In this document: in pieces, positions 1,253 through 45,457 of the stretch | How the letters are laid out: each line of letters opens with the position of its first letter | Position numbering within the stretch: position 1 is the first letter of the stretch | From: Arctopsyche grandis | Lineage: Eukaryota > Arthropoda > Insecta > Trichoptera > Hydropsychidae | Direction: 5' to 3' | Assembly: GCF_051622035.1 (NCBI RefSeq) | Contig: NC_135359.1 | Coordinates: 20,971,501 to 21,035,500, forward strand | DNA length: 64,000 nt | The notes under the pieces: generated by a model | What the model was told of the DNA's origin: nothing | Databases searched by the model: none | What the model saw: the letters and a program-made list of their open reading frames with translations, nothing else | Translations under genes and position numbers: made by a program

Positions 1253-2468
1253 ATATGTTTGTACTTCATGCATTTATGAATATGTTGTATTATTTATTAT
1301 TATCTTAAATAAGCTTCAGATATATTATCAACCAATCTGTATTGATTGTTTTTATCACTGTATACATCATACGATATTGATATTGAACTACTCCATACAT
1401 GTGTAAAAATTATATCATACAATTAAATACTACACTTAAAATCGTTTAAAAGATGAATCGATAATATATATTTCACAAATTATGTACATACCTACATGTT
1501 TTTTTTATTTGATATATTGCCATAGTTGATAATCAATAATGTTATCTTGCCGTATTTTTTTATTTTGCACATTCAAGGTTGTGACGTTGCAAATTTATGA
1601 CTGCACTTTATGTTTACCAACAGGTGAACTCGACATTTATGTACTGTTCGCTTCATATTTGCATTTACGATTGAAATCATGGGTGAATGCATTGTATAAA
1701 TCAAACGCTTGTAATGAAATATTAACCAACGATCTTGATATGGAGTTTTTATTAAACCATGTAATTTGATTGAACATTCAAGTTTGTTATTATCTTGTTG
1801 ATAGGCGAACTCGATTATTTGAAAATGCAGAGTCGCTATCTTTATGAATTCCCCACAGTAACGGCTAATGTTAACGCAAAAAGAATTATAACAATAAGAA
1901 CTACATGTTATAAAATAAAAAAATTAATCACAAATTGTCATTAAATGAAATTTCGTTTTCAAATATTTACATGTCGCATTTACAGTGGTTTCAAAATACT
2001 CGCTGACCTTACACCGCACAGACGTGTGTTTGACTATTGTTTTTTTTATTATTATTTCATTTTAATTTACATATAATATGAAATTGGAGATTAATAGTGA
2101 AGTGAACAGCTGTTATATAAACGAGGTAATTTTTTAAATACATTATATCATACATATGCGTGTAGGCAAAAAGAGCGTATTTTATGAATTTCTTTTATAC
2201 TACGCAATGAAATGTATACATTTGTATACCAGCTCAGAGGGTAAGTTTGAAGAAATCATGAAACGGAGAAGTTGAGAAATGTATTTTGAAGTGTTTCATT
2301 CAAAAATGGTTACCTGGACGACCAATACAGGTCTATTGTTAAAAAAAAGTTATATTTTCTTTCTTTTCCCCTTGTGAACCAACTTAATATGTGTTTAATT
2401 CAGATAATCAAAGTTCTATGTACTATATTATATGATTTTCTTATTAGACATATGTACATACATACATA
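1253..2468. other. Intergenic, 3' flank of the zinc-finger gene
   Basis: AT-rich and without a recognisable gene. The open frame at 1539-1769 encodes nothing I recognise. A segment near 1577-1623 is bordered by AG and GT, but its translation matches no domain I know and it is not joined in frame to anything. Confidence 0.5.
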
Positions 2469-2486
2469 CATATGTGCGCGGTCTCC

Positions 2487-2846
2487 GTGACGAGCCGGAA
2501 TGTTAAATTACAGAAAACGCAAATATCGGAAGGCAAAGATCTTAAGTCGAAAGATCAAAAAAAAGGGTGGATGGTAAACGGTACATACTCATTTAATTTG
2601 CGCGAGCAGGATACGACAGGAACAAGAGGAACAGGCTTTTCCTCCCGTATTAATGTGCGCGCGCAGAATACGGGAGGAAAAGCCTGTTCCTCTTGTTCCT
2701 GTTGTACCCTGCTCGCGCAAATTAAGTGAGTATGTACCGTTTACCATGCACCCTTTTTTTTGATCTTTCGACTTAAGATCTTTCGATTTTCGATCTTTGC
2801 GTTCCGATATTTGTGTTTTCTGTAATTTAACATTCTGGCTCGTCAC
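2487..2846. repeat. Foldback (long inverted repeat) element
   Basis: The segment is one long, nearly perfect palindrome. It begins GTGACGAGCC (2487-2496) and ends GGCTCGTCAC (2837-2846), with the centre near 2666 in a GTGCGCGCGC tract. Arms of about 170 bp include a Gly/Lys-coding-like AAGATC/AAAGATC-rich outer part and an inner part with AGGAACAGGC. Both strands therefore show mirror-image open frames (2472-2729 + and 2589-2846 -) that are not genes. Outside the arms, CATATG occurs on both sides (2469-2474 and about 2854-2859). A rearranged relative lies at 17340-17580. This is a foldback MITE; the superfamily is unknown. Confidence 0.85.
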
Positions 2847-2930
2847 GTTGACCCATATGTGCGTACGTATATGGATATATCGCCATTTTTGATCATTTAT
2901 TTGGATGATTTACATGTGCAATTGGTAAAC

Positions 2931-3025
2931 GGATTATTCCGCATAAAGCAATCTCGCGCAAGTCACTAAAATCTCGATCACTGAACATCTAGCACTCGAG
3001 TTCTCGTTAGTACAATATTTTACGT
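2931..3025. repeat. Single-arm copy of the 46471-46659 foldback family
   Basis: Starts GGATTATTCCGC and runs through a CACTAAAATCTCGATCAC core to a CACTCGAGTTCT block and GTTAGTACAATATTT. It is clearly the same as the left arm and start of the loop of the palindrome at 46471-46659, but the opposite arm is missing. Confidence 0.75.
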
Positions 3026-3041
3026 GAATTTGAATTTCTGA

Positions 3042-3080
3042 ATCCGATAATAATATTTTCTAATTAAAAAATTATTATCG
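3042..3080. repeat. Short AT-rich hairpin
   Basis: CCGATAATAATATTTTC is followed by its near reverse complement ending in ATTATTATCGG. The hairpin stem is about 15 bp. It may be the remnant of a MITE end; no function is inferred. Confidence 0.5.
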
Positions 3081-6000
3081 GATGATGTGACATTGCAACA
3101 CGATCATTGATTTATTTAAACGTACAATTAGAGGCTATTAAAAAGGGCAGTTCCTCCATAGGAGCTGTGAAACTGTAACGAATTCCTTTCCAAAACCGCT
3201 TGTTATTATATTATCAAGAAAAACCTTAATCTTAGGCAATTGCCCAAAAAGCTACCCTTTTACAATCGTTCTATTAACTGTACTTTCATTTAATTTGTGA
3301 TTTTATGTTGTATCTCATATTGATCGACGTTATCTGGAACGATGGTCCTATTTTTATAGAATTAGTGGGACTATTGATTTTCTTCAACATTATTAGTTGT
3401 TTTAAAAGTACATACATATACTTACAGACTGCCAAACAATACTATATATTTGAATACTTCTTTAGTTCCATATCTTTGAAGAAGATAAGAGAGTTTTCAT
3501 TAGATTTAAAAGATTTATACTTGTTATTGCGGACTTTTATAATATTTACATTATTTTGAACATTTTTATCCCTAGTATGACGCATTTTGCTGAAAGATTT
3601 CTGTAATATTTTTTAGTTTGCAAAAATTAATATCTAAGGGGAAAAATTATTGATGAATATTTTGTGCAAAAGAATCTGAACACGTGCGTGTTATAAGATG
3701 TTGACCAATTCCAATCATGTTGCTTACTATCAAATGGAAAAAAGTTTGCATGTGAACACACGATAAATAATTGAAAAAATAACAATGTCAAGAATATGAT
3801 CCCCCGCGTAGGTTTATCTAAGTTCTAAGGTCGCGCAAGTCAAACCCGACAACAATAATAATAAAATATGTTTGCTGGGGGCCTATATCACGATCGGAAA
3901 ACTTTTTTTGAAAATATCTTCGTCACAGTACGCAGAATTGATAAAAACAAACATATTATTCTGTCAAACATTAGGAAAGAAAATGAATAAAATAATAAAT
4001 TAAATTAAATGTCTAAAATATCAAAGTTTTTAATTGCTTTTGCAATATATTGACTCTTAATTCAGCGAACTTTCCGATTGGCGCTAATTTTTAAACGTAA
4101 TAAATTCAGTAAATCGTATTAGGTTATGTTAAAAAATATTGAGTTTTTGGCCAAACATTGTAGCAAAATATACAAATGTCAAACTAATAACAGTTTCGTA
4201 ACTTCGCACTGCTGTGCCAAACTGACAGTACCCATCAATTTATGTCTTAAACTGCAAAAAATATACAACATTTTGATGTGGTGACGTCAAAATGATACCT
4301 GGAGACGTGACATGTAAGTTTTGAGCAGAGGTACATATCATGAAATAAAACAATATTTTCAAAATCTCATACAGCTCGTTAAGTGTATTTTCACTATATT
4401 ATCTAAATTATCGCACGTGCTAATAAGCGATGAGCAAGCATAATATAATGAGTTTTGTTGCAGACCCCCAGCTGTTTGTGCCGTTTATCTTTAGCAAATA
4501 GCTGGTATGACGAAATCATTACGTCAAAACACTCCCTCAAAAATAAGCGTCATGGGTCGCAATTTGCTTTAACAGAGTCGCACGTTTGTGTATTTTTCAA
4601 TTTTGCTTATATGTTGATACATCAATTTAAAAATAAATTTATTCTCGGACGATAATAATATATACATGATATGCATTTATTTTGTGCGAAAATCGATGAC
4701 AATATATTATTTATTTTATTTTTATAACGGAGAAAGGATGAACTGATTAGTAACGTTAGTGTAATTTGAGTATCTATTGGTTTTGATATGACAGCTTCGG
4801 TCAAAGACGAATAACTTTGATATGTAATTTAATTTAATGATATGTAATTTATTAACACTTAAATACATAGTTGCTTAACTGGGTAATGACTTCTAGAAAG
4901 TCACGTGTCATAGATTTTAAAATCAGATCAGATAACATTAGAATAGTCAATAAATTGATGTTGTTTTTCATTATGTTGTATTTTGGATAGGTGGTGTAAA
5001 TGAAATCGTTTCAGGGGCAGTTGCCATCGACCCTGTTGAATCAAAAGAACATGACGTAAGTGTATGATCTATTATTTTTAACGCTTATCATTCCAAACAG
5101 TCAATTTAAATTGTCCGGATATTAACTTATTGTTGCAATTGAACCACTGCAATGGTCGCTCGTAGTAAAAATCCCGATAGCTGAAGGTTGAATGACCAGT
5201 TCAAAGCCATTTGGAAATTGTATTATGTATATATTATCGAAGAGGAAGTTAAGAAGCTTTGGATGAATGGTTCGATAAAATCATATTTATTATATTATAA
5301 ATTACATACATACTTAATTTTTGGGGAAATTTCGTGCTAGTTTTTATCAAACAAGGTTAAATAGATAGTGTTGGAAGTATTCGAGATATGACTTTTCTTT
5401 GTGTTTTTATTGGAATTATTTATGTTTCTTTAATATTAGTTTGTTTTCTATTTAAAGCTCAGGAAAGGAATGTAACGCAAAAGTTGCGATTATTCTGATG
5501 AAATGCTGACTGTTATTGTCTCGATAAATATACGCTAAGAACTACGTATACATATAATTGCTGATAATACTTTTTAGTGTTTACAAACGCAGACTATCAG
5601 GCAGGCAAAGGGTTTGCTTTACGCTCAGTACTTTTTTTTTATATTTTCTGTTACATTTTATATTTTACGTATTTTTATAAATAAAAACTACAAACCTTTT
5701 TCCAAAGCTGATGCAATATGTATTTCAAAAAAGTGTATTATTATATTTAAAGTTTTATATATTTTATTATTAGACATGAATAATATTCATATGTACATAA
5801 GAGGGGAGTAATGTTAATGTTTTTAAAATAAATATTTAAAATGTACATATTTATGTAATTATCGTAAAACACTTGTTTCTACACATCAAGTTAAAAAAAA
5901 TATTTAAAAACTTCAAGGAGGAATTAACAAGAATTCTAATCAGTTTCAATAGACAATACTAACCAATTAAAATTGGAGCCCAATTTTTTAAAAATTTCAC

Positions 6001-17110: not shown

Positions 17111-17291
17111 GAAGTGTAGCAAACAATGAACAAACTCTGCCGCGCAGAGTTTCTGTATCAACATTTTTGGAGGTTGAGAGCGATTCTATACATTCTACTT
17201 CTATGCCGCTATGTAAAAGAAGTGACCGTGAAAAAGTCGAAAATATTCATTTATCATGCATACATATGAAAAACGGTTAGTATATATATAT

Positions 17292-17455
17292 CAGTGGCGT
17301 GCGGTAAAAGTCTCTCTCCCCCCGTCGTACATCCTCACTTAATTTGCGCGAGCAGGATACAATAGGAACAAGAGGAACAGGCTTTCCCCTCCTGCGCGCG
17401 CACATTAAACAAGGCTGTATGACAAAAAGAGAGATAATTTCACCGCATGCCACTG
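17292..17455. mobile_element. hAT-type MITE enclosing foldback-element sequence
   Basis: Termini are CAGTGGCGTGCGGT on the left and ACCGCATGCCACTG on the right, flanked on both sides by ATATATAT (a possible 8-bp TSD, though low complexity). The interior (about 17336-17407) matches the inner arm of the foldback element at 2487-2846, including TTGCGCGAGCAGGATAC and GGAACAGGC. Confidence 0.75.
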
Positions 17456-17475
17456 ATATATATTATATATACATA

Positions 17476-17590
17476 GTACCGTTTACCATGCACCCTTTTT
17501 TTTGATCTTTCAATTTTCGATCTTTGCCTTTCGATATTTGCTTTTCGATACTTGCTTTTTCGACCATTTCACTTCCGGTCCCGTGTGGTA
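17476..17590. repeat. Outer-arm remnant of the foldback element
   Basis: GTACCGTTTACCATGCACCC followed by a T run and GATCTTTC-type repeats matches the right arm of the 2487-2846 palindrome (2736-2810). Together with 17292-17455 this is a broken or chimeric copy. Confidence 0.7.
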
Positions 17591-43675: not shown

Positions 43676-44106
43676 GAAACACTGGCCAACCGATGGTTTT
43701 TCGACCAGTACCTCGAGACTGCCACAATATGTTCAATTATACCATTAATCAGTAGTGGGCAAATAGAGCTGAATTGTTATTTTAACCAAATTTTAAGCAG
43801 TGTTCACTTATTTTATTGGTAGGTAATAATATGTAAATTGCTTGAATACAAATTTCTCTTTTTTGTTTAAATGTTTTCACTAACTTAACCATAAATATAT
43901 GTAGATTCCTATCAATGAAATGGTTTTATTAGATGGATTAATTATTTAATACATAATCCATCTAATCTAATAAAACTAGGTTTATTTATGATGAGCGGTG
44001 CACTTTGGGTTTGTACTCTAGTAATAACTTCCTTCCCGGCTGTCAAAATAAATAGTTGTGCATTGCCAACACAGTCGTCGCACTCGTCCTAACCCCATAA
44101 TATATA

Positions 44107-44273
44107 CAGGTCTGTTACTAAGAGTTGGCGCGTTCTCGTACTCAAAAAGAAGCGCACGAAAGGGACAGAGCGTCTTTTTTTTATTATTGAATGCAGTGTG
44201 ACAGGATGCTATACACCTATTCACCGAAACAACACAAGTGAATTTGTTCGCGCCAACTCTCGGTAAAAGACTG
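44107..44273. mobile_element. 167-bp MITE with GAGTTGGCGCG inverted ends
   Basis: Left CAGGTCTGTTACTAAGAGTT followed by GGCGCG; right end, inverted, CAGTCTTTTACCGAGAGTTG followed by GCGCG. One gap and a few mismatches over 26 bp. A related end (GCGCCAACTCTATAATAA) is at about 43255. No clear TSD. Confidence 0.65.
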
Positions 44274-44389
44274 TGACTTTTACCTTTAAAATTCACATAG
44301 CCAACAAAAAAAAAGACTTCGTTTTTTTACATACCTCTTATACATTGCACATAGTTTTCGTTTATTGATTTGTAAGACAGGGAAGGTAT

Positions 44390-45453
44390 TATGGAGGATG
44401 AACGAATGAGACGACTGGCATGTTAATGCACGTGTTTATTATATGACAGCTGAAGACAGAGTGAGTAGCGGCTGTTCGAACCCAGCCGGGTTGGTCCCCA
44501 CTCGCAGGAAGGCAACCAAACTCGACCATGTCGTATAAGCGAGCCGCCACATCACTCCCCCCCCAGCATCAGCGATACCAAAATTACAAAGAAACAAATT
44601 TTACAAAAGAAAAAAATTATTGTTACACAAAGAGAAAAAATTATTACGTGGGGAGAAAAAAAATTGTTGACGTGGGTCATCCGCTGTGTACATAGGTGTA
44701 CCGCCCTGAATGGTCGGTAGATTCGAGGGCGGTGACGTCGCGAGCAGGACGGTGGGTAGTCCGATGGTCGCGCCGATGCGATGCGATGCTGCGGCGGCGC
44801 CGCTCTTCCGAGGCTGATGTCGGTTGGTGGGGCGGCGGGGGCGGCAGGGGCATCGATGTGGTTGATGATACTCCGAGCTGGACTGTGAGTCGTTGTGGCT
44901 CGTGGAGGTGTTGTAGCGCTACCGCCCGTCTCGGTGTGGGGACGGACGGGGCCTTGATGATGATGATGGTGCTGAGGTGGTGTATGTCTTGTGGTGCTGG
45001 ATGACCGTTCTATGTGTAGTGGATCGCGCATGACTCCACATCCAGCTGTCAAGATCGTCGTCTCATTCGCTCCCCCATTTTTTTAAGCACCTGTCATCGA
45101 CGTTGTGGCTGGACGTCGGTAGGTAGGTAGGTAGCCGTGTCTGCTCGTTTATTGTCACCCGCGGGCCGCGACGCGTGTTGATGGCGATGGGGGCGCGGCG
45201 GGTAGCTTCTCCCGCCTGGCTCGGCGAGGCAGGGATGAGCGGCATGTTGAAATTGATCGAGGCTGCGTGGCTCGATGTCGGGGGTCACCAGTATGGAGGA
45301 TGAACGAATGAGACGACTGGCATGTTAATGCACGTGTTTATTATATGACAGCTGAAGACAGAGTGAGTAGCGGCTGTTCGAACCCAGCCGGGTTGGTCCC
45401 CACTCGCAGGAAGGCAACCAAACTCGACCATGTCGTATAAGCGAGCCGCCACA
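44390..45453 (-). mobile_element. TRIM-like LTR retroelement with two apparently identical LTRs
   Basis: Two direct repeats of 162 bp, 44390-44551 and 45292-45453, look identical base for base. GTAT flanks both sides (44386-44389 and 45454-45457), a 4-bp target duplication. On the minus strand, the sequence just inside the 5' LTR is CTGGTGACCCCCGACATCGA, a primer-binding-site-like TGGTGACCCC, and the sequence just before the 3' LTR is GCTGGGGGGGGAGTGA, a polypurine tract. The internal part is only 740 bp, GC-rich, with Pro/His/Arg-rich frames (44552-45052, 45063-45288) but no protease, RT or integrase. It is therefore non-autonomous (TRIM) and very recent. Confidence 0.9.
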
Positions 45454-45457
45454 GTAT

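Follow-up and report, generated by a model that had tools for sequence, protein, structure and literature searches.

The 64,000-nucleotide stretch of Arctopsyche grandis DNA analysed here (the window) contains a short element that is flanked by two LTRs and in which no mobility gene was found. An earlier note, made from the sequence alone, had described a freshly inserted TRIM-like element that an autonomous partner must have mobilised. Its observation was confirmed by our analysis, and its interpretation of the element as TRIM-like, recent and trans-mobilised is supported, fitting the near-identical copies, target-site duplications (TSDs) and non-conserved reading frame found genome-wide. The window element belongs to a large, young family of non-autonomous LTR retrotransposons (TRIMs), and we estimate a probability of roughly 0.8 that this family is moved by an autonomous CsRn1-like Gypsy element, for which a family designated F1 is the named candidate.

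A complete TRIM in the window

The features of the element and its surroundings are as follows.

44390–45453, minus strand: complete non-autonomous LTR element (TRIM), 1064 bp
45292–45453, minus strand: 5′ LTR, 162 bp, TGTGGCGG...CCTCCATA
44390–44551, minus strand: 3′ LTR, same sequence as the 5′ LTR
44552–45291, minus strand: internal region, 740 bp, with a reading frame that varies among copies
45281–45290, minus strand: primer-binding site (PBS) TGGTGACCCC, of presumed tRNA-Trp type, one base (C) past the 5′ LTR
44552–44564, minus strand: polypurine tract GGGGGGGGAGTGA
44386–44389: target-site duplication, left copy, GTAT on the plus strand
45454–45457: target-site duplication, right copy, GTAT on the plus strand
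45337–45342, minus strand: AATAAA in the 5′ LTR, overlapped upstream by TATAA
44371–45910, minus strand: probable solo LTR, older and belonging to another family, TGTAGG...CTTACA, flanked by AATC, on which its boundaries rest
43900–44099, plus strand: diverged relative of the TRIM LTR ending ...CCATA, the certain part being 44006–44099

On alignment, 162/162 bases of the two LTRs agreed, and the parts that the earlier note had located are all in place: the GTAT duplication (ATAC when read along the element's own strand) flanks both ends, TGGTGACCCC follows the 5′ LTR after one base, and the G-rich polypurine tract GGGGGGGGAGTGA abuts the 3′ LTR. The LTR reads TGTGGCG...CCTCCATA, and the junction of the 5′ LTR with the PBS is CCATACTGGTGACCCC. 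Chance agreement of 4-mers at the TSD spacing was seen at 452 of 62,900 window positions (0.7%). The 10-nt PBS is the longest match in the window to the 3′ end of what we take to be the tRNA-Trp sequence, on which all primer-site assignments in this study depend; the runner-up is 7 nt long.

The internal region was likewise as described, only 740 bp long and GC-rich (56.8%, compared with 51.9% in the LTR and 32.6% in the whole window), with CAT/CAC and CTAC runs whose lengths vary among the copies compared. Pfam returned no match for three open frames inside the window copy, and no gag-pol or other mobility gene was found there. RNA folding of the LTR was unremarkable (z −0.49). Separately, internal positions 220–235 (window 45057–45072) display inverted complementarity to LTR positions 137–152 at 15 of 16 bases, a value equalled by 0 of 60 shuffles.

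When the insert and one GTAT are taken out, what remains is a 472-bp LTR bordered by AATC at each end, and parts of this LTR are 87–90% like stretches at two other loci (L071 and L098). Because these relatives diverge just before the insertion point, the joined flanks support rather than prove an empty site; the TRIM probably landed near the 3′ end of this older solo LTR. Close by, 44006–44099 on the plus strand aligns to LTR positions 68–162 at about 70%, its end ...CCCCATA coinciding with that of the LTR, and has an alignment score of 47 against at most 33 in 822 other window comparisons. A TG start follows ATATA at 43895–43899, matching ATATA at 44100–44104, and would make 43900–44099 a 200-bp solo LTR with an ATATA duplication, a reading that is suggestive only in such AT-rich DNA. 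Beside this diverged LTR, 44110–44271 has 23-nt inverted arms (87%) set 116 nt apart, resembling a MITE. The window is AT-rich (CpG observed/expected 1.14) and has Ku-domain, KH and MFS matches elsewhere, features consistent with an animal and perhaps an insect. It also contains a long near-perfect inverted repeat (117 nt, 97%) at 2480–2853, with a second related copy 14.7 kb off at 17284–17559. Rfam at gathering scores gave no match on the whole window.

A large family of near-identical copies

The genome searched comprised 475.7 Mb, including the window. The LTR search gave 1473 candidates, of which 40 were scored, all being at least 99% identical, and the internal-region search gave 779, of which 40 were scored to yield 41 matches at 93–100% identity; these candidate numbers come from a first look and so are not full copy counts. 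Thirty copies from the internal-region search were read (L009–L038, the window's own among them). Both LTRs were complete in 30/30, a 4-bp TSD was present in 28/30, and the LTR pair was identical in 18/30, while every copy (30/30) had TGGTGACCCC one base past the LTR and GGGAGTGA preceding the 3′ LTR. Pairwise identity of the internal regions was 97.6–99.9%, gaps aside, and the commonest bases at TSD positions 1–4 were A, T, A and T (15, 18, 17 and 17 of the 30 upstream tetramers). The first-ATG frame ranged from 29 to 223 aa across the 30 copies; it varies by indels, and the TRIM therefore contains no conserved gene.

The CCATA end of the LTR, which the earlier note had correctly recorded but called odd, proved to be a family trait, since all 30 copies end in ATA: the 3′ LTR ends in CCATA in 29 copies and CTATA in one, and the 5′ LTR in CCATA in 28 and CTATA in two. 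Internal regions of the other 29 copies measure 750–768 bp, so that these elements are longer than the 1064-bp window copy, whereas a short copy, L043, measures 661 bp. Published TRIM members reach 1192–1263 bp (PMC3532108, PMC10886601), so that the limit of about 1000 bp for TRIMs is a soft one. One copy (L029) has a 29-bp insertion within its 3′ LTR.

Twelve places from the 40 LTR matches listed were read, and each proved to be TRIM: two LTRs were present in 11, and the stretch fetched for L053 contained a single LTR plus part of the internal region. As one of them, L057, is the same copy as L038, the LTR search contributed 11 copies additional to the 30.

F1, a Gypsy family with the same terminal signals

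A search of the genome for the tRNA-Trp site (7 matches) led to an element other than the TRIM, L042, which has identical 123-bp LTRs (TGTGGCG...CCCACA), an AATC duplication, a tRNA-Trp site one base past the LTR and the end of a Gypsy pol. This pol end has 117 genome matches, and the 23 loci with a pol C-terminus at ≥99% identity constitute F1 (L058–L080, L073 being L042's own). Among the F1 places listed, 11 of 23 have a 1041-aa open frame with no stop in the match. A 586-aa piece of F1 contains RNase H, H2C2 and integrase-core domains, and the 3′ part of the integrase carries a GPY motif (PPYDGPYRVLKRG in L042 255–515), the same 86 aa with this motif being found at 99–100% in 23 places. Judged by these sequences, F1 is apparently a CsRn1-like Gypsy family that has been recently active; its primer site was read from L042 only.

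L042 itself (positions 92–1643; G000:C10:11802593–11805608) is an F1-type LTR element keeping only the pol end, the rest of pol having been replaced by an antisense, uninterrupted U5 snRNP 40K coding sequence (PDB 3jcr_D, E 1.4e-76), part of which is doubled (505–833 and 1150–1478, 99.4%). This insert is apparently a host mRNA captured by a Gypsy element. Gypsy pol ends were also observed at fairly regular spacing, of about 7.4 kb on G000:C188 and C41, 21–23 kb on C73 and C13:27456665–27522730, and 17–21 kb on C2:27301–122063, which suggests tandem arrays of retroelements.

The boundary between polypurine tract and LTR (marked by a slash) is GGGGAGGGAGTGA/TGTGGCGACC in the F1-type elements L060 and L042 and GGGGGGGGAGTGA/TGTGGCGGCT in the TRIM, so that GGGAGTGA/TGTGGCG is common to both over 15 nt. 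By contrast, comparison of the TRIM LTR with F1 and 13 other Gypsy-like loci gave background-level scores only (21–30), and the LTR ends are unlike (CCATA in the TRIM, CCCACA in F1). Among 12 further Gypsy-like stretches, the junction GGGGGAGTA[TC]/TGTGG was found in five (L089, L090, L094, L095 and L098), L092 has GGGGGAGTAC/TATGG, and L096 has an F1-type LTR. No polypurine/LTR junction was recognised in the other five of the 12 fetched (L088, L091, L093, L097 and L099), in which an LTR may have gone unseen, and the exclusion of another helper is weakened for this reason.

A locus that joins TRIM and F1

TRIM sequence is present in 3 of the 23 F1 loci. In L069, a TRIM interrupts F1: the F1 sequence continues at 100% to either side of it, and the duplication is ACCA; the same F1 site is uninterrupted in L059, which is a clean empty counterpart. 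In L078, a TRIM that is the same copy as L011 lies 18 bp from an F1 LTR. The third locus, L075, has the order GGAC, complete TRIM LTR, TRIM internal positions 1–440, F1 pol end, F1 3′ LTR, GGAC. Its F1 LTR is split by a later insertion (1885–3153), probably of a DNA transposon, that has GGGCGC/GCGCCC termini and a short duplication.

Given that one 4-bp duplication surrounds a unit with a TRIM LTR at its start and an F1 LTR at its end, the two were integrated together, unless two deletions in a nested pair mimic this arrangement. Standard reverse transcription yields two equal LTRs, and L075 would therefore require cDNA recombination or a rarer event. We favour the view that TRIM and F1 cDNAs were joined before integration at L075, and consider it about an even chance that the locus arose by a single integration of a hybrid cDNA whose two LTRs differ. 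If this is the case, TRIM and F1 cDNAs would recombine within the same particle or pre-integration complex, the F1 integrase would need only the last few LTR bases (TGTGGCG / ...A), and L075 would identify the TRIM helper directly from sequence.

Alternatively, L075 may not be a hybrid insertion but a TRIM nested in F1, with deletions that chanced to leave GGAC at both ends. TRIM copies do sit in or beside F1 (L069 and L078), and a deletion between the two LTR starts, both TGTGGCG, would keep the 5′ TSD. However, this history requires two deletions, of which one must have fallen precisely at the LTR start that TRIM and F1 share, and a 4-bp match that is unlikely by chance, at the 0.7% of window positions reported above for the tested spacing; we regard it as a possible but doubtful account of the locus.

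A second alternative concerns the helper itself. A TRIM is usually connected with its helper through LTR likeness, and the present family could have arisen by deletion from an autonomous parent of its own that has the same LTR, is rare, diverged or unsampled, and moves the family instead of F1. Such a parent would be compatible with the diverged LTR relative at 43900–44099, with the scoring of 40 of the 1473 LTR candidates, and with the junction unrecognised in 5 of 12 Gypsy-like stretches. The 12/12 places read from the 40 listed LTR matches were TRIM, though, and 0 of 14 Gypsy-like loci tested show the TRIM LTR, so that within this scope the LTR was never found on a full-length element, the very outcome that the earlier note had named as one that would refute its reading. 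L075, moreover, joins the TRIM to F1. We consider an own parent of this kind unlikely, and F1 the likely helper on the basis of one hybrid locus plus the terminal signals; that F1, rather than a close relative, fills this role is what we infer. The case for F1 is weakened because the TRIM LTR has no similarity above background to F1, the LTR ends differ and the hybrid is a single locus, and also because the window PBS matches tRNA-Trp over only 10 nt and the host tRNA-Trp gene was not found. The evidence for a helper is unusually direct for a TRIM, yet it comes down to one locus.

The primer tRNA

The short sister copy L043 (337-bp internal region, LTRs 96.9% alike, TSD GTAT) bears on the identity of the primer. 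Past its LTR, 29 nt match the complement of the presumed tRNA-Trp 3′ end, beyond the usual 18; further along, the copy continues into the final 304 bp of the TRIM internal region. The 29 nt apparently stem from reverse transcription that ran on into the primer tRNA beyond its normal stop and would thus be a trace of priming by tRNA-Trp, and such a read-through would back the primer's identity from genome sequence alone. The match of the PBS to tRNA-Trp is 10 nt in the window copy, 29 nt in L043 and 19 nt in the F1-derived L042. Of the seven genome matches to the 3′ end of tRNA-Trp none was called as a tRNA, and the anticodon arm of tRNA-Trp had no genome match. Tandem units were observed at about 1367–1700 of L044/L045 (G000:C13:29268000–29271165), each with a tRNA-Trp-type primer site (...CCCCGCCTACATTGGTGACCCC...), and some are extended by a tRNA-like TGATTTGAAC. 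Viral contigs were scanned for exact copies of the 18-nt tRNA-Trp site, the LTR start and the PBS leader, and the contig collection for the LTR start, with 0 matches in every case; the collections consist of viruses and prokaryotes, so these negatives say little.

Proposed mechanism

In the model that we propose, Pol II would transcribe the TRIM from its own LTR. Particles of an autonomous CsRn1-like Gypsy element would take up the RNA, presumably by co-packaging, and it would be reverse transcribed there, tRNA-Trp serving as the primer and the G-rich tract as the second primer. The helper integrase would then insert the TRIM, producing the 4-bp duplication. Helper and TRIM would have in common only the short signals that the machinery reads, namely the primer-binding site, the polypurine tract and the LTR start TGTGGCG. 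TRIM helpers are usually guessed from sequence likeness; here, the candidate helper shares almost no sequence with the TRIM, and the connection between them consists of terminal signals and a hybrid locus; what Gypsy machinery recognises thereby becomes directly testable.

Transcription by Pol II is more likely than by Pol III. LTR positions 109–117 (TATAATAAA) contain TATA-like and polyadenylation signals. A Helenus-type TRIM (TRIMp3) would instead depend on RNA polymerase III and a tRNA-like promoter in the LTR, and the LTR does contain GGTTCGA, a perfect box B core, which was present in 15 of 2000 shuffles; a box-A-like TGGTCGAGTTTGG begins 46 nt upstream of it. In the passages cited, hymenopteran Helenus elements also use tRNA-Trp among their primers and animal Helenus elements have 4-bp TSDs (PMC10886601). 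Nevertheless, the element gave no Rfam match even at E 10, the combined box A/B score was equalled by 117 of 2000 shuffles, and, with no T4 run in the LTR, the internal regions of 30/30 copies contain runs of ≥6 T, at which Pol III transcription should end short of a full RNA; we regard the Helenus reading as very improbable.

Age of the insertion

That the window element was freshly inserted, as the earlier note put it, holds in kind: the insertion is recent, but its date is only bounded. The 0/162 LTR differences correspond to a 95% upper bound of 1.8% divergence. With insect substitution rates of 2.8e-9 to 1.1e-8 per site per year or generation, this amounts to at most about 0.8–3.3 million years or generations. 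Gene conversion or assembly as the source of LTR identity, conceivable for a sequence as short as 162 bp with many near-identical copies that might convert one another, is scarcely credible, given that the window contains zero N, that the TSD, PBS and polypurine tract are all present, and that LTRs are identical in 18/30 copies, yet internal regions differ by up to 2.4% among loci.

Comparison with known systems

TRIMs and tRNA-Trp Gypsy elements are both known in insects (PMC3532108, PMC10886601, PMC2582038, PMC3630058), and a bumblebee TRIM/LARD annotation has been published (PMC4414376); the comparisons below apply to the parts of these sources cited. The present family has the hallmarks of a TRIM, with paired short LTRs accompanied by PBS and polypurine tract in 30/30 copies, no mobility genes, and multiple copies with TSDs. 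It resembles PbTRIM of the red harvester ant in its size class, non-coding internal region and several copies with identical LTRs, in LTR length (152–184 bp in PbTRIM, 162 bp here), and in a 4-bp TSD preferring ATAT, A, T, A and T also being the commonest bases here (PMC3532108). In contrast, PbTRIM has a tRNA-Leu primer site, which is absent here, where 30/30 copies have TGGTGACCCC, fitting tRNA-Trp as we take it to be; its LTRs are described as TG...CA rather than TG...TA, it is 480–781 bp long as against 1064 bp for the window copy, and its authors had found no autonomous relative, whereas a helper candidate is named here (PMC3532108).

Helenus TRIMs are alike in the 4-bp TSDs of animal members and in having tRNA-Trp among hymenopteran primers, and their Gypsy helper was likewise inferred from the PBS, with helper LTRs that may be unlike (PMC10886601). 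Their defining tRNA-like LTR sequence was, however, not detected here by Rfam (E 10). The TG...TA end, found in 30/30 copies of this animal TRIM family, has a counterpart in the TGTA entry of the LTR_retriever motif list, a non-canonical end allowed by annotation software (PMC8220671).

The CsRn1 lineage of Ty3/Gypsy has a tRNA-Trp primer site and a 4-bp TSD (PMC3630058, PMC2582038). The TRIM and L042 likewise have a PBS of tRNA-Trp type, and the duplication is 4 bp in 28/30 TRIM copies and AATC in L042. The GPY motif of the lineage is also present in the F1 pol end (PMC3630058, PMC2582038). The LTRs of the 14 mosquito members listed, at 146–407 bp, span the 162 bp of the TRIM but are longer than the 123 bp of F1, and the TRIM differs from CsRn1 in lacking gag-pol (PMC3630058, PMC2582038). 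Among the papers listed by our literature searches, we recognised no description of this TRIM family or of a TRIM-helper hybrid with two different LTRs, which does not prove that none exists; among the animal TRIMs already known, the family described here is a new addition.
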